From contig JAACJV010000010.1 of assembly GCA_021378535.1 (NCBI GenBank), forward strand, positions 1 through 35,742: 35,742 nt of DNA, written 5' to 3'. Source of the stretch: Ureaplasma sp. Hg1. Lineage in GTDB: Bacteria; Bacillota_I; Bacilli_A; Mycoplasmatales; Mycoplasmoidaceae. Positions 2,609-35,742 of the stretch are shown piece after piece; position 1 is the first letter of the stretch; every line of letters starts with the position of its first letter. A model generated the notes under the pieces. That model was not told where the DNA came from. It searched no databases and saw nothing but the letters and a program-made list of their open reading frames with translations. The translations under genes and the position numbers were made by a program.

Positions 2609-3592
2609 ATGAAGGAAACAAAACAAGATAAAAATTTACAAGAAGCCATTGATATTATGGATACAAGATTTGGTAAAGGTACATTATGCTATGGTAATTT
2701 ATCAGAACAATCTAATGGAGTTATTAAAACGGGAAGTGTTGCACTAGATCGTGCGCTCGGTGTTGGTGGTATTCCTAAAGGTCGAATCATTGAAATTTTT
2801 GGAAACGAATCATCAGGTAAGACAACAATAGCTTTACAAATTATAGCTGAATGTCAGAAGGCTAAAGGGAAAGCATCTTTTATCGATGCAGAGCATGCGC
2901 TTGATTTGACCTATGCTAATAATTTGGGAGTTAATGTTGACCAACTATTAATTTCTAAACCTGATTCCGGTGAACAAGTATTTGATTTACTTGAAGCAAT
3001 TGCTAACACTGGTAAAATTGATTTAATAGTAGTAGATTCAGTTGCGGCATTAACACCAAGTGCAGAATTAGCAGGGTCTATTTCGGATCAATCAATGGGA
3101 GCTCACGCTCGATTAATGTCGAAGGGTTTAAGAAAATTACAGGGAGTAATTAGTAAAACTAATACGACAGTTGTTTTCACTAATCAAATTAGAGAAAAAA
3201 TTGGTGTTATGTTTGGTAACCCCGAAACCACAACAGGAGGTCGAGCATTAAAGTTCTATGCCTCAATTAGAATAGAATCACGCAAGGCTGAGCTTATAAA
3301 AGACGGCATTGATAAAATAGGAATTAAAAGTAAAGTTACAATCGTAAAAAATAAGGTTGCCCCACCTTTGCAAACAGTGTATATTGATATATTCTTTGGT
3401 AAAGGATTTGATCCATCTATTGAAATGATGAATTTTGCGATTCAATATGGAGTTATATCTAAAAGCGGTTCTTGATATTATTATGGGGATAAAAAATTAG
3501 GTCAAGGCCGTGAACAACTTAAAAAGAACTTATTAGAAGATGTCAAATTATTTGATGAAATTAAGAAAGCAACCGTTGCATTTATTTCCTAA
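2609..3592 (+). CDS. recA: Recombinase RecA
   Basis: A 327-residue RecA, the ATP-dependent strand-exchange protein of homologous recombination and repair. The core is conserved: Walker A GNESSGKTT at 65-73 (usually GPESSGKTT, so Pro is replaced by Asn), DAEHALD, the Walker B-type LIVVDSVAALTP, loop 2 region FGNPETTTGG, and KNKVAPP. UGA encodes Trp in KSGSWYYYGD; stopping there would cut the protein at 288 residues and remove a conserved region. The acidic C-terminal tail of longer RecAs is essentially missing. The binding site is GATGGAGG. An intact recA is notable because several reduced mollicutes have truncated copies. Confidence 0.95.
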
Positions 3593-3642
3593 ATATACAC
3601 CAATAATAATTATTATTATGTATAATTTAATGGGTGATTTAT

Positions 3643-5067
3643 ATGGAAACAGATTCTTATGTTGTCATTGCACTATTAATTTTCTTAATATTATGTGTTT
3701 TTGGAATTATTTATTTACGTTTGCGAAAAACAAACAAAATAGGTATCGATAAAACAACCAACGATTCAAAGGGAAAAATACCATCTTCGTCTTCAAACGA
3801 AGATGGTTTCCTGATTAAAAAAAATATTTCAAAAGCTTTACAAAAAAATATGGATGAACAAATTTCCTTATATCAAGCAAAACAAATGGACTTAGATATT
3901 CTTACCAGAGAATATAATGAAAAATTAGCTCATATTGCTAATGTAAGTACATCAGAAGCCAAACGAATTATCATGGACAATATTAAAAACGAATTGAAAA
4001 GTGAAATAAATGGCGAAATTAAAGAAGCAAAAAAAGAGCTTCAATCAAAAAAAGAAACATTAGCACAAAATATTTTAGTTGAGGTTATGGAACGTACAGC
4101 AGAGCCTATGATTCAAGAGCGAACTACAACGACAATAAAATTAGGCGATGATTCAATGAAGGGGAGAGTAATAGGTAAGGAAGGACGTAATAAACGTTCT
4201 TTTGAAATTTTAACTGGTGTTGATATAATTATCGATCGGGACACACCTAGTATAACGCTTTCTTCAGCGAACCCTGTACGACGGGAATTAGCCGCACGAA
4301 TAATGCATAAATTAGTTAGTTCTAAAAATATTGAACCAAGTAGAATAGAACTAATATTTAGTGAAGAGAAAGACAAATTTGATACTGCACTAATTGAATA
4401 CGGTCGTGAAGCGTTAGAAGATAAATTAGAGATATTGGATATTGATCCAGGCATTTATAAAATTATAGGTCGGATGAAATTTAGAACAAGTTATGGGCAA
4501 AATGCTTTAGATCATTCAATTGAATGTGCTAATTACGCTAATCACATTGCAATTATTTTAAATCTAAATCCAATAATGGCAAAAAAAGCTGCGTTCTTTC
4601 ATGACATCGGTAAATCAGTTGATTTTGAAATTGATAATGATCACGTTGCTAGTGGATTAAGACTTGCTTCTGAATATAATTTAGAAGACTACATTATAAA
4701 TGCAATAGCTAGTCATCATAATCAGGTGCCGGCCGACAATATTTATGCTTCTATTGTTAAAGTTGTAGATACTTTATCAGCCGCTCGACCGGGTGCAAGA
4801 GCTGATTCGCTTGAAGAATATTTAAAACGAGTAACAGCGTTAGAAAAAATATGTAATAATTTTCCTGAAGTTATGAAATCATATGCAATAAAGTCAGGTC
4901 GACAAATTCGTATTATCGTTAAGCCTTCGTTGGTAAAAGATAACGAATTGGAATATCTAGCAAGAAAAATTCAAAAGGAAATAGAAAAAAATGATGCTAC
5001 TAAAAATAACAAAATTACAGTTGTTATACTAAAAGAATCACGTTTTCAATTGGATACTAATAAATAG
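3643..5067 (+). CDS. rny: Ribonuclease Y
   Basis: A 474-residue membrane-anchored endoribonuclease that initiates mRNA decay. An N-terminal transmembrane helix (about residues 6-25) is followed by a charged coiled coil (about 60-150), a KH RNA-binding domain around GRVIGKEGRNKRSFEILTGV (174-193) and a metal-dependent HD domain with HDIGK at 320-324. The family usually has about 510-520 residues, so the coiled coil is somewhat short. The ATG at 3643 fits the GGGTGA site better than the in-frame GTG at 3634, which is part of it. It follows recA after 50 bases, and a TATAAT at 3621-3626 may give it its own promoter. It contains no tryptophan. Confidence 0.93.
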   Translation: METDSYVVIALLIFLILCVFGIIYLRLRKTNKIGIDKTTNDSKGKIPSSSSNEDGFLIKKNISKALQKNMDEQISLYQAKQMDLDILTREYNEKLAHIANVSTSEAKRIIMDNIKNELKSEINGEIKEAKKELQSKKETLAQNILVEVMERTAEPMIQERTTTTIKLGDDSMKGRVIGKEGRNKRSFEILTGVDIIIDRDTPSITLSSANPVRRELAARIMHKLVSSKNIEPSRIELIFSEEKDKFDTALIEYGREALEDKLEILDIDPGIYKIIGRMKFRTSYGQNALDHSIECANYANHIAIILNLNPIMAKKAAFFHDIGKSVDFEIDNDHVASGLRLASEYNLEDYIINAIASHHNQVPADNIYASIVKVVDTLSAARPGARADSLEEYLKRVTALEKICNNFPEVMKSYAIKSGRQIRIIVKPSLVKDNELEYLARKIQKEIEKNDATKNNKITVVILKESRFQLDTNK

Positions 5068-5085
5068 AAAATACATTCATAAATA

Positions 5086-5952
5086 TTAATTAAAACATTC
5101 AGAATTAAAGAAATGGTTTAATTCTCAAACTACACCATTTTCATCATTACCATATTTTGTAATATGTCTAGATAATAATTTAGGAGTTTTTGTACCATTC
5201 TTCATAGCAAAACCATATTTAGCTTTTGAAAGCATTTCAACATCGTTATCACCATCACCAAAAGCAATGCAACGGTCTAGTGGGATACCATAATATGAAC
5301 TCAAGTATTTAAGAGCATTTCCCTTGTTACTATAAATTGAATTAATTTCAATTATTTCCCCTGAGATTGGAAGACTATAGTTTCTAACGACTAATGTTGA
5401 TGCTGCTTTTTTAACCTCATAAACCATTTGGTCAAATTCTTCAGCTGAAGCAACATGTAATAAAATTGAATTCAAATCGTATTTTATTTTAGATGCATCT
5501 CCATCTAAGATAGATAAATTATGTCGTTTATCAAGATGGAATCATTCACTGAATTCCTTTTTAGTAACAGGATCATCTAGGCTATATAAAATACTACCTT
5601 GATTTTCTCCTTCAACAATTGCATTCTTAATTGTTTTACGAATCACTGGATTACTAAAAATACGCTCTGCCACCTTACTACTAAAGGGTAAGTTAATTGA
5701 AGAAAAATTATTGTTTGACGGATTACAATAGTAAGAGCCATTAAAGTTCACCATTATTGTATCTAATTCCAATTCTTTATAAATATGAATTGAAGCTCTT
5801 CTTGGCCTACCTGTAGCTATGCAAAAGACATGTCCTTGTTTAGTTATTTCCTTAATTCCTTTGATAGTTTCTTTGGAAAGCTTGCTTTCAGAATTTAATA
5901 ATGTGCCATCTAAATCACACATTATTAAATATTTTTCATTATTTTTTAACAT
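5086..5952 (-). CDS. HAD-superfamily phosphatase, Cof type (IIB cap)
   Basis: A 288-residue HAD hydrolase with all four motifs: DLDGTLLNS (nucleophile D13, acid/base D15), the TGR of motif II (FCIATGRP), a lysine in SNKGNALKYL (motif III), and GDGDND in motif IV. The spacing between motifs II and III suits a IIB (Cof) cap. Such enzymes dephosphorylate sugar phosphates, flavin or other small metabolites; the substrate cannot be told here. Two UGA codons are read as Trp, and the second extends the C-terminus to a TAA at 5088-5086. The binding site AAGGAG is well placed. The gene follows trpS after 12 bases, so the two are probably co-transcribed. It is the only catalytically complete HAD protein of the three in this window. 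Confidence 0.88.
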
Positions 5953-12958: not shown

Positions 12959-13468
12959 TTAAGAATAAGGCAGAGTCACTACTTTGTGATGCTTTAATGA
13001 TGCTTTAACATCGACCAAACGTTGGTTACTTGAACCGCGATATTTAGTTTCTGTGCTAAATAGTTTTAAAACAAATTTTCCATCAACTAAAACATCAATA
13101 TTACTTAACAATGATTTTATATGTTTATCTGTTTCACAAATGTTTAATAATTCTTCATAGGTGTAGCCGGTATAAGATCATATACTTAGTTTTGTAGTTA
13201 CTTTAATCGCTTTTGCAAAAGTTGCGAAGGCTTCGGGTTGCTGAAAAGGGTCACCACCACTAAAGGTAATTCCTTTTAAATATGTACTCTTTTGAATATC
13301 AACTAATAAATCATCAATTTCTAGTAGTTCACCACCTTCAAAAGGTTGGGTTTCGGGATTAAAACAACCGGGACAATTATGTGTACAACCCTGTGAAAAG
13401 TAAACTCTTCGTAACCCCTTACCATTGGTTAAACTTTCATTGATCATGCCGCTTAATCTAATTTTCAT
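12959..13468 (-). CDS. nrdG: Anaerobic ribonucleotide reductase activating protein NrdG
   Basis: A 169-residue radical-SAM enzyme that installs the glycyl radical in class III ribonucleotide reductase. The [4Fe-4S] ligands are CTHNCPGC (C28, C32, C35) and the SAM-binding GGD motif is FSGGDP (69-74). One UGA (Trp after KLSI) must be read through, giving the remaining 72 residues. The start codon overlaps the end of the upstream glycyl-radical ORF by 11 bases, which indicates translational coupling with its substrate domain. Length is normal for NrdG. Confidence 0.92.
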
Positions 13469-13655
13469 TACTTTTAGATTTTATATGATAAACATTATTG
13501 TGTTTATTGTTATGATCAATTCGATCATTACGTTCTGCAGTTTTACCAACTCCAAATCTTTCGTCTAATGAAAGGTAGCCAGTGACACGGCTAATGCCTT
13601 GTGTGTTGTTGCTGCCACAGTGGGGGCAACCGTTTTTATTACATTTATTTTCCAT
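13458..13655 (-). CDS. nrdD: Separate glycyl-radical C-terminal domain of NrdD
   Basis: A 65-residue ORF that corresponds to the very C-terminus of class III ribonucleotide reductase. CPHCG (10-14) is the second CxxC of the zinc ribbon. SRVTGYLS (22-29) is the glycyl-radical loop with Gly26 as the expected radical site, and RFGVGKTAERNDR is the typical tail. It starts at an ATG with a near-perfect AAAGGAG six bases upstream, so independent translation is credible. The body of NrdD ends 11 bases upstream (stop 13669-13667) just after the first zinc CxxC. The ORF lies in the -1 frame relative to the body. It may be a genuine subunit, the product of a -1 frameshift, or the result of a one-base error in the T5 run at 13673-13669. 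Confidence 0.85.
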   Translation of the reverse strand: MENKCNKNGCPHCGSNNTQGISRVTGYLSLDERFGVGKTAERNDRIDHNNKHNNVYHIKSKSNEN

Positions 13656-13666
13656 ATTAATCTCCT

Positions 13667-15346
13667 TTAAAAATATTTATAGCATTGTTTACAATATTGA
13701 ATATGTCAGTTTATACCGAAATAACTAATGTTAGTTGTTTCATAAGCAAAACGTACAATATCTTCAATTGTTTCTGGTTCAGGATATCCATCAATTTCAA
13801 CATAGGAAATATGACCAGAGTTACATAATTTATGATAAGGTGCTTCAACATTAATTTTGTCAAAGATAGGTATTATGAAACCTACGGGAATATGAAAACT
13901 ATTAGTATAATATTCTTTATCAGTAACACCTTTAATTTTTCCAAATTTAGCTTGATCTAATTTAATAAAATAACCAGATAAACCTTCTGCTGGAGTCGCA
14001 TAACAACTAAAATTTAAATGATACTTTTTAGTTAAATCATCAGTTTTGTTACGAATGAATGAAATTATTTCCAAACCTAGTTGTTTTGCTTCTTCAGATT
14101 CGCCATGGTGTTTTCCGATTAAAGCAGTTAAAGTTTCAGCCAAACCAATAAAACCAATTCCTAATGTTCCATGCTTAATAACAGCTTCAATGGAATCATC
14201 AGGTTTTAAATTTTCACTTCCAACCATAACGTGCTGACCAATAGCGAATGGTAAATCTTTTACCCTAAGTTTTTTCATTGTATTATAACGATGAATTAAT
14301 TGTTCTTCAGATAATTTAACTTTTTCATTTAATAGTTTATAAAAAGTTTTAATATCATGTTTTGCTAAAATTCCTAAACGAACTAGATTGATGGTAACGG
14401 GTGCATTGTTGCCACGGCCGTCAACACCAGCTTCACCATTAACATTACTCAAAACATAGGTGCGACATCCCATTGTAGCAGGCAAGACGCCTTTGTCGTA
14501 TCACTCCTTATTGAAATCAGCATCTAGATTCATAAAGGTAGGGTTCATTCTTTTGCTTGTCACACGACATGCTAATTTGAATAAATAATAGTAAGGGTCG
14601 TTAATATCACGATTGACACCTTTTTTAACTCTGAATATAATGTTAGGGAAGATTGGTTGTTCTCCATTACCTAAACCTTTTTCATATTGTTCTAGAAATA
14701 TTTTGCATAATAGTGCAGCATCTTTGTTCTTAGGAATACCGATATTTAATGAGCTAAAGGGAACTTGACTCCCTGCGCGACTATGCATTGTGTTTAAATT
14801 AAAAACTATTGCCTGCATTGCTTGTCCGATTCTTTTGTATAATTTTTCTTCCACTAATTTCTCTAATAGTTTAGGATCAACTTTTAATGCTTGGTATTCT
14901 TTTCTTATTTCTTGCCTTGTTGGTTCGATATAATCTGATAAATCATTATCAAAGTTTGGGTGGGATTGACCACCAAACATATCATTTTGAGTTGCCTGCA
15001 TCAAAATACATGATAACTCAGCTGCTACTTCAATCCGTTTTGGTTGGCGGATATATCCATAACCAGTGTTGAATCCTTCGCGTAACATTTTAGCTGTCGG
15101 GATATGAAGACAATTAATAGTTAAATTATAACTATCCATATCGTGAATATAAAAGTCTCCTTCAACATGTGCTTTAACAAATTCAGCAGGGATAACGCTA
15201 CGGATGTAACATTTATTTGATTCAGAAGCAATTCTCAATAATTTAGCTGAGAAATTATTACCGACATTAGCATTATCACGATCTGTTTCCACACCCATCT
15301 TTGCGATTTTATCCATTAAAGCAGTTTCTTCTTTTTTATTATTCAA
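13667..15346 (-). CDS. nrdD: Anaerobic (class III) ribonucleoside-triphosphate reductase, catalytic body
   Basis: A 559-residue body of NrdD, which reduces ribonucleoside triphosphates in the absence of oxygen. Signature segments are YIHDMDSYNLTINCLHIP (Cys79) and PATMGCRTYVLSN (Cys294), matching the two catalytic cysteines of the T4 enzyme (79 and 290), plus DKEYYTNSFHIPVG and SYFGINWHIQYCKQC at the end (first zinc CxxC, 552-555). Two UGA codons are Trp. The TTG start at 15346 is chosen for AAGGAG ten bases upstream. An ATP-cone domain is absent, as in T4 NrdD; joined to the 65-residue ORF the total would be about 630. The frame stops at TAA before the second zinc CxxC and the radical glycine, so this polypeptide alone cannot be active. 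Confidence 0.9.
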
Positions 15347-15521: not shown

Positions 15522-15564
15522 AAATATCACTACAAAATATTAAGTAAATTTTGTAGTGATATTT
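15522..15564. promoter_or_regulatory. 17-bp perfect inverted repeat upstream of nrdD-nrdG (possible operator)
   Basis: AAATATCACTACAAAAT (15522-15538) is repeated exactly inverted at 15548-15564 around a 9-base spacer. It sits just upstream of the likely nrdD promoter region. No gene on the plus strand ends here, and the only gene it precedes is nrdD, so an operator or DNA-bound regulator site is more likely than a terminator. The half-site CACTACA resembles half of the NrdR box, but the spacing and centre do not fit that consensus. Confidence 0.5.
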
Positions 15565-33890: not shown

Positions 33891-35742
33891 CTAATAATGT
33901 TTAGTAGGCAAAACATTGATTAAACCGTTCATCGTAGCTTTTAGACTTTGACTATTTGATTTATTATTATTTTTTGTTTTAGCAGGAGCAGGTCCAGACA
34001 TATTATTTTGAAATTGTTTAGATATATCATCGTGCATAATCCAAGGTGCTTTGGGCTTAGACTTGCTGCCTGTAGAGCCGTAGTATTCGTCGGCTACTTC
34101 TCAAGTTAAAATTCCAGCAATATGATATTGTTTAACTAAATTAATTTTAACTTTAATTGACGATTCTGTATCTCCGCTTCATCAGATGCCGCTCTTTGAA
34201 TTCCAAAAGTAACTTGAACCCGTGATTGGATTTTTAATCATTTTTCAATCGGGTCCGGTACATTGACTTGCGACATAGCCATAACTTGCGATACTATTAT
34301 CTAAATCACCCGAAGTACCACTCTTGTGCATTAAATATCCTGGTATTTCTTCAACTGGATATTTATATCCAGCGGCTTTAGATACTTTATACCCCCTTTG
34401 ATATGTACCAGCACCAATAACAATTTTTGCATTAGGCACACCAGTTGCTGTTCATTTATGATTAGGATCACTCGGATTTAATAAATCTAGGATAGTGTCC
34501 TTACAACTAAAAGGTAATTTACTTGGATCGCCAGGGAAGGTATTTGGTAACCCTTGTAGTTCTCAACTATTATAATATTCGGGGTGAAGGTGATATGTTT
34601 TATTATCAATGACGACTTGTTTTTGTTTTGTTGCCATCGCGTGGATTAAAGGCATATCATCCATTGGCATAGTTGCATCACCTGAAACAATATCTCAACC
34701 ACCATGCATGTCATAATTCATTGCATTAAAGAAATCAATATATTTTGATACCTCACCTAAATTAATTCGATTATATACATTTGTCATACTAGCACCAAGT
34801 GCAATCGATATTTGTGTATTTTGGACGTCCGGGTCCGGGTTGGCTAGAAAGGCTTCCTTCATATTTTTTAGTAATTTTGTAAAATTATTCATATCAGCAT
34901 TTTGAGGATATTCTCAATCCAAATCAACTTGATCAAATCCAAATTTTTCAACAAGCGCAATTATATCATTAATGAAATTATCAGTTTTCTCTTTGCTTTG
35001 AGTTATAGCAATAAACGGAGGGGAGCCAGAATTTGCACCACCAATTGATAATCCAGTTTTAGTACCGTACAAACTCTTCACAGTATTTAATTGACCAATA
35101 AAGCCACCATTATATGATTCAGAAGTATAAACCATTCCTCTCTGATTTATTTGTGCATATTGCATTCAATCTGGAAAATTATCATAACCTTTTATTTGAG
35201 TTGGTTTATAATGAGCATCTTGACTAATAACACCATAATCTTTTGGAGCCCAAGAATTTGTACCTAACAAGAAATCTGCAGTCATATCTGTGAAATATAT
35301 ATGACCACTTGAAGCTTGCGGATCCATAAACGAATAAATATAAGTACTATAATTATGCGGATTTATATCAGAAAAATCAAAGCCGTCTCTACTATAAAAT
35401 TGTGAATCAGTAGCATATCCAAATGATTCATTATATGGAAGACCATTTTTATTTAAATCTCGAATTGTGTAATTTAAATATTTACTTGGTGTTGTGTAAT
35501 TTTCAGGTGTCGTTGTACCTGCAGGTGGGATTCTTGAAATTAACTGATTAAATTGTAGAGATACTACAATTGATCCGTCTGCATCTAAAGGGTGTAGTAA
35601 AATTTTATCTATATATTGTTTTGGATTTGCAATATCACCATTAGAATTTTCAATTTTAATTAAATTATTGTAAACTCAATCATTGACAATTGAAGTAGGT
35701 AAACAATTTTTTTGGTTAGCGCTAAGGTCTTCAAATTCAATA
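33891..35742 (-). CDS. Glycoside hydrolase family 18 chitinase (5' end outside the window)
   Basis: At least 617 codons, with the N-terminus beyond base 35742. After roughly 190 residues of unassigned sequence (SIVVSLQFNQLISRIPPAGT, then YSTYIYSFMDPQASSGHIYF) comes a GH18 barrel. It has GLSIGGANSG (the SxGG motif), FDQVDLDWEYP with the DxxDxDxE catalytic signature (34911-34934; acid Glu at 34913-34911), FNAMNYDMHGG (MxYD) and GILTWEVADEY near the end. At least seven UGA codons are Trp, including the one in the active site, so the standard code would destroy the enzyme. A Pro/Ala/Asn-rich tail follows. It should cleave chitin, for example of an arthropod host; secretion cannot be judged because the signal region is outside. 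Confidence 0.9.

Follow-up and report, generated by a model that had tools for sequence, protein, structure and literature searches.

Class III Reductases, Spare Radical Domains and Reductases in Pieces

Class III ribonucleotide reductases (NrdD) have been described as enzymes of one chain, which oxygen destroys by cleavage at the radical glycine. The systems closest to the locus described here are these single-chain NrdD proteins and their activase NrdG, e.g., those of T4 (1hk8), P. copri (8p23) and Clostridium, with which the locus has in common the sequence family, the barrel, the active-site cysteines, the CxxC pairs, the RVTGYL loop and an adjacent nrdG gene. In the single-chain P. copri enzyme, the glycyl-radical domain (GRD, residues 676-739) comprises a Zn site and a buried glycine loop and is too mobile to be seen in the dATP-bound states (PMC11226230), while in the T4 and T. 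maritima enzymes the radical loop is separated from the last strand of the barrel by the Zn ribbon (PMC4493059). The locus departs from this architecture in that there are two genes, the ribbon is cut between its two CxxC motifs, the radical glycine resides on a chain of 65 amino acids, and the large chain (the body) lacks the ATP-cone.

A second likeness is to radical proteins that stand alone. The T4 protein Y06I is a stand-alone glycyl-radical protein for pyruvate formate-lyase. In a similar manner, GrcA/YfiD serves damaged pyruvate formate-lyase as the source of its glycyl radical, and whether such spare parts exist beyond this enzyme has been left open (PMC8683613). The small chain described here resembles both proteins in being a separate radical-glycine protein that serves a larger enzyme and in occurring also in a phage, but it belongs to another family (no PF01228) and carries half a zinc ribbon. 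Moreover, in contrast to the GrcA/YfiD system, the large chain has no radical domain of its own, and its partner thus looks obligatory and not like a repair part.

Reductases encoded in pieces are also found in phages, in which the enzyme is made from adjacent partial open reading frames (ORFs). These include NrdA-a/b of Aeh1, which is functional, NrdJ-a/b of phiYS40, and the NrdD of phiAS4, which is in three fragments (PMC3653736, PMC2988022). However, the phage pieces are class I or II enzymes or scattered fragments, some of them tied to homing endonucleases, whereas here the detached part is an entire functional module, present in the cellular genomes of many species and often unlinked from the body gene. 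The literature searched yielded no account of a class III reductase with a stand-alone GRD, although most subscription journals lay outside the search and an earlier mention is possible.

The Divided nrdD Locus of Ureaplasma sp. Hg1

The window, i.e., the whole stretch of 35,742 nucleotides analyzed, covers positions 1-35,742 (forward strand) of contig JAACJV010000010.1 of Ureaplasma sp. Hg1 (GCA_021378535.1, hereafter G000), a draft genome of 1.16 Mb in 42 contigs from a bacterium in which TGA encodes Trp (genetic code 4). The NrdD body is encoded on the reverse strand at 13667..15346 and has 559 amino acids, from a TTG start at 15346 with AAAAAAAGGAG immediately 5' of it to the C-terminus ...NWHIQYCKQCYKYF-TAA (also written IQYCKQCYKYF-TAA); a reading by table 11 interrupts it at two TGA codons (W282 and W547). 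It contains the catalytic barrel, Cys79 and Cys294, and the first half of the zinc ribbon, CKQC (13682..13693, reverse strand), four residues ahead of the stop. A run of five T (13673-13669) directly precedes the TAA (13667..13669, reverse strand), which overlaps the Shine-Dalgarno sequence AAAGGAG of the next ORF (13662..13668, reverse strand). This ORF, at 13458..13655 on the same strand, has its own ATG at 13655, begins with MENKCNKNGCPHCGSNNTQGISRVTGYL... (also given as MENKCNKNGCPHCGSNNTQGISRVTGYLSLDERFG...) and encodes the putative stand-alone glycyl-radical subunit of 65 amino acids. The second CxxC (CPHC, 13617..13628, reverse strand) and the predicted radical glycine, Gly26 within RVTGYL (codon 13578..13580, reverse strand), are invariant in 23/23 small proteins. 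The 3' end of the small ORF overlaps by 11 bases the gene for the radical-SAM activase NrdG (12959..13468, reverse strand; TIGR02491, 152.9 bits, cut-off 126.1), which is thus encoded alongside both NrdD parts, as in class III systems. The description in an earlier note on this DNA, of a body that stops after the first CxxC at a T5 run and of a 65-residue ORF with the second CxxC, RVTGYL, an AAAGGAG and an ATG of its own, is correct in coordinates and motifs.

Both chains belong to the class III family. Over the catalytic domain, the body matches PF13597 at model positions 1-515 (E 4e-166, 554.5 bits) and TIGR02487 with 561.6 bits (cut-off 326.35), and the small ORF continues PF13597 at model positions 522-562 (E 8e-9). 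Among the NCBIfam models, only those for class III reductases match the small ORF strongly, and only with their end regions; as a stand-alone protein the GRD is covered by no NCBIfam or Pfam model. The analogy with GrcA drawn in the earlier note is apt for the mechanism but does not extend to kinship, as the small protein gave no match to PF01228, the glycine radical domain of the pyruvate formate-lyase type, at E values up to 1. The radical-glycine motif RxxGY is present solely on the small chain. With two genes, the locus lacks the single-polypeptide architecture that is usual for NrdD although not defining. Cys79 and Cys294 of the body, invariant across 21 homologues and aligned with T4 NrdD, are the equivalents of the T4 active-site cysteines C79 and C290, whose roles are taken from established knowledge. 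The 559 amino acids of the body, without an N-terminal ATP-cone, compare with about 650-730 in its Clostridium relatives and in those of the two genera g4 and g9 treated below, all of which possess this cone.

Elsewhere in the window, a long inverted repeat, ATATCACTACAAAAT...ATTTTGTAGTGATAT, lies upstream of nrdD at 15524-15562 and is perhaps a terminator or a regulatory site, and a large protein with a DLDWEYP motif, by eye similar to family 18 chitinases, is encoded at 33891-35741 on the reverse strand.

Distribution of the Two Chains and of Other Reductases

The same division was found in a survey of 95 genomes of the family, most of them drafts from metagenomes. In genera g4 and g9, the NrdD bodies stop just past the first CxxC, and the GRD, which has its own gene, shows the consensus M..KVTYLxPxxxxCPVCGS..IQxxSRITGYLSLDERFGxGK; the metagenome-assembled genomes (MAGs) 'Mycoplasmataceae bacterium' Cc175_bin15 and Hs463_bin28 are divided likewise. 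With a profile built from the 23 small proteins, a stand-alone GRD gene was detected in 2/2 g1, 6/6 g4 and 34/36 g9 genomes, and in neither of the two g9 genomes without it was a body seen. Over the 95 genomes, body and GRD occur together in 41, the GRD alone in one, the body alone in none and neither in 53 (p 3e-26, a value that ignores kinship and so overstates independence). Where the two halves are linked, nrdG lies between them in most cases, at times together with a 730-aa ORF or a gene resembling those for glycosyltransferases; in one genome (G072) the small gene is placed upstream, and in 17 g9 genomes body and small gene are on different contigs. The distances among bodies and among GRDs correlate (r 0.88 overall and 0.90 in eight unlinked pairs), which indicates that the two parts are inherited together.

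Class I/II reductases (PF02867), present in 46/95 genomes of the family, were not found in any g4 or g9 genome, and full-length NrdD is absent from g4 and from nearly all g9 genomes, a few g9 drafts (G071, G078 and G101) also showing a fused NrdD. Without a class I/II reductase, the two-piece NrdD must work in these genera. Judged from gene content, it is the reductase of g4 and g9, barring the few g9 drafts with fused NrdD. In G001, a second species of the window's genus, the split NrdD is the only NrdD found. In G000 itself, contig 5 carries a gene for a class I reductase and contig 1 a further nrdD (C1:2003-4067; L018, L225), which is divergent, encodes a fused protein and is immediately preceded by an nrdG of its own. 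With these two enzymes present, no claim is made that the split NrdD is essential in that genome.

These distributions bear on the possibility that the small protein is a non-obligate, GrcA-like part that repairs oxygen-damaged full-length NrdD. Such repair of pyruvate formate-lyase by GrcA/YfiD is known (PMC8683613), two genomes (G187 and G188) each encode a stand-alone GRD in addition to a fused NrdD, and the second nrdD of G000 could in principle be a client. However, g4 and nearly all g9 genomes offer no full-length NrdD to repair, only the split enzyme was found in G001, and the occurrence of the stand-alone GRD follows that of the truncated body. We therefore regard a mere repair function in these bacteria as unlikely. 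Enzymes with an alanine, serine or threonine radical (PMC11528403) were also considered as a model for the bodies without a GRD and were rejected, since the split genomes have a regular RxTGY in trans.

Two Genes Under Purifying Selection

The comparison with G001 shows that the two halves are maintained as separate genes. The bodies of the two species are 92% identical in amino acids and 84% in bases, and G001 keeps the T5 run, the TAA, the Shine-Dalgarno sequence and the ATG, with one additional base between the latter two. Because of this base, the small ORF of G001 lies in the frame of the body, behind an in-frame TAA, whereas that of the window lies in the -1 frame. The recurrence of the stop, Shine-Dalgarno and ATG series in a second species, and of the division in dozens of relatives, where the earlier note had proposed to look for it, is not attributable to chance. 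Both body and small ORF are under strong purifying selection, with dN/dS of 0.039 and 0.046, respectively, similar to the 0.050 of nrdG, at a dS of about 1.1, which is near saturation. That nrdD was recently broken and is decaying as a pseudogene, a suspicion that the two further reductases in the window's genome might raise, is thus very unlikely: all three genes show this constraint with synonymous sites near saturation, the small ORF retains its Shine-Dalgarno sequence and ATG, and sister genera depend on the same arrangement.

The frame relations also dispose of the two readings in which the halves form one protein, both of which the earlier note had left standing. In the window, the T5 run directly ahead of the TAA would permit a programmed -1 frameshift that fuses both frames into one NrdD. 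However, the identical slip cannot join halves that share a frame, as they do in G001, and no slip site that would join the frames is conserved in relatives, which in other genera have nrdG or other genes between the halves or carry them on separate contigs. Moreover, the slipped product would have a linker of 18 residues as compared to 9-10 in the fused Clostridium proteins, and frameshifting is in our view excluded for practical purposes. As no one slip or missing base can join the halves in both species, the loss of one T from an intact nrdD, conceivable at a homopolymer in a draft assembly, can be set aside altogether: in G001 the T5-TAA is identical but the spacer differs in length, an extra T there opens no single frame, and dozens of further assemblies, in which the genes are ordered differently, keep the division. 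The third reading in the earlier note, that of two subunits, is the one supported by the frame relation in G001, the separated halves in relatives and the purifying selection.

The Zinc Ribbon and the Proposed Two-Subunit Enzyme

The AF2 model of the window body is a complete barrel (pLDDT 87.5, pTM 0.88) that agrees with the core seen ordered in the dATP form of the P. copri enzyme (8p27; TM 0.86/0.88, rmsd 2.3) and also with T4 NrdD. The small chain carries what the body is missing, namely the radical loop and the remainder of the ribbon. YCxxC is found at the end of 38/38 split bodies and of three divergent ones, and CxxC in 23/23 small chains, and both motifs of the ribbon are thus present and conserved, although on two chains. 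If the ribbon were not rebuilt, lone CxxC pairs should have been let drift, and it is therefore probable, in the absence of zinc-binding data, that a Cys4 zinc site is shared between the chains with two Cys from each. In the small chain of the window, the KVTYL stretch present in the others is missing and there is an additional cysteine, Cys5, so that the details of its ribbon may be different.

From these data, we consider it highly probable that the locus encodes a class III (anaerobic) ribonucleotide reductase of two separately translated chains to which the glycyl radical is supplied in trans, a proposal made without expression, structure or activity data. At the level of the genomes, the existence of two independent genes, their conservation, selection and co-occurrence, and the lack of class I/II enzymes in two genera are established; it is inferred that the chains dock, that they share a zinc site, that activation takes place on the complex and that ribonucleoside triphosphates are reduced. 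In the proposed mechanism, the body would provide the barrel, the active-site cysteines and the sites for substrate and effector, and the small chain half of the ribbon (CxxC) together with the loop that bears the radical glycine. Docked on the body, the small chain would probably complete the Cys4 site, and NrdG would set the radical on the small-chain glycine, presumably on the complex, after which the docked loop would hand the radical to the active-site cysteine in trans. A speculative benefit is that a small chain cleaved by oxygen could be replaced.

The split NrdD is hence a natural, maintained reductase with its radical predicted on a separate small protein, and in two genera no class I/II enzyme stands beside it. 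It represents a test system for the recognition of the glycine by the activase, for GRD exchange after oxygen damage and for a two-chain zinc site. Annotation would label such bodies as truncated and overlook a partner of 60-105 amino acids.

A Radical Domain on a Phage Contig

A stand-alone GRD (MLTYLKPGETKCPVCGSTHICEISRITGYLSFDERFCESK..., 4968-5126), with 82% identity to the G030 small chain, is encoded on the 43 kb IMG/VR contig 3300001598_000013 (L212) of a mollicute phage, in which TGA also encodes Trp. No NrdD body was found on this contig, which may be partial, and the GRD fits a part acting in trans on a host body, in parallel with the phage-carried radical protein Y06I of T4 and pyruvate formate-lyase. 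The contig further encodes a large protein with weak likeness to a tail protein and a reverse transcriptase (phrog_1423, E 1e-87, 3457-4515), with a possible diversified target gene upstream (1724-2683), and the two together look like a diversity-generating retroelement. Phage NrdDs of the Clostridium type are fused proteins and did not point to an origin of the split. In a phage NrdD (L208, 2763-5153), about 280 bases, possibly an intron, interrupt the gene near the GCR finger loop.

Origins and Parallel Splits

The nearest fused proteins are those of Clostridium (C. hydrogeniformans, C. paridis and C. mobile), with 65-68% identity. In a tree of the body columns, the window together with G001, the Clostridium group and g4/g9 form a clade with 100/100 support, the inner order of which is unresolved, and a single clade for all split sequences is not rejected (AU p 0.38). 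The ribbon reads CRSC-GTYLQSGESK-CSKC in the fused proteins; in the window it is cut as CKQC-YKYF (stop) and MENKCNKNG-CPHC, and in g4/g9 as CxxC (stop) and KVTYLxPxxx-CPVC. The differing break points and gene orders favor two splits, and the sequences thus suggest, without proving it, that NrdD was divided twice within the mollicute family; a single event remains compatible with the tree.

Detached GRDs also occur outside this family. Separate GRDs, of about 90-105 amino acids, were found in 52/53 Selenomonadaceae and 12/13 Acidaminococcales genomes with a truncated body. In these two groups and in one Bacilli family the break lies after the zinc ribbon, unlike in the mollicutes, where it is inside. 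In Tenericutes/Bacilli MAGs (L090/L104 and G305/G346), the break follows the complete ribbon and a GRD of 60-odd amino acids adjoins. In surveys of Bacilli, nearly all NrdDs among the matches listed are fused, with few splits in one family. The GRD-less bodies of the Selenomonadaceae, Acidaminococcales and Bacilli types fall in three places of the tree apart from the mollicute split, from which the detachment of the GRD probably happened repeatedly. A broader proposal, for and against which we see equal chances, is that the GRD is a detachable, exchangeable subunit that has been cut off repeatedly in Bacillota (within the ribbon in mollicutes, and after it in Selenomonadaceae, Acidaminococcales and a Bacilli family) and that a phage also carries. 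It would dock in mollicutes through an inter-chain zinc site and be replaced once cleaved by oxygen, acting as a cheap carrier that spares a costly body.

The GRDs of Selenomonadaceae (L214-L218, L220 and L221) and Acidaminococcales (L144, L146 and L148) have a similar-looking N-terminal stretch of ~60 amino acids before RIRRITGYL, which gave no Pfam match in the two proteins tested. The extra stand-alone GRDs of G187 and G188, which belong to the order of G118 and have a fused NrdD, are about 100-114 amino acids long and are candidates for true spare parts like GrcA.
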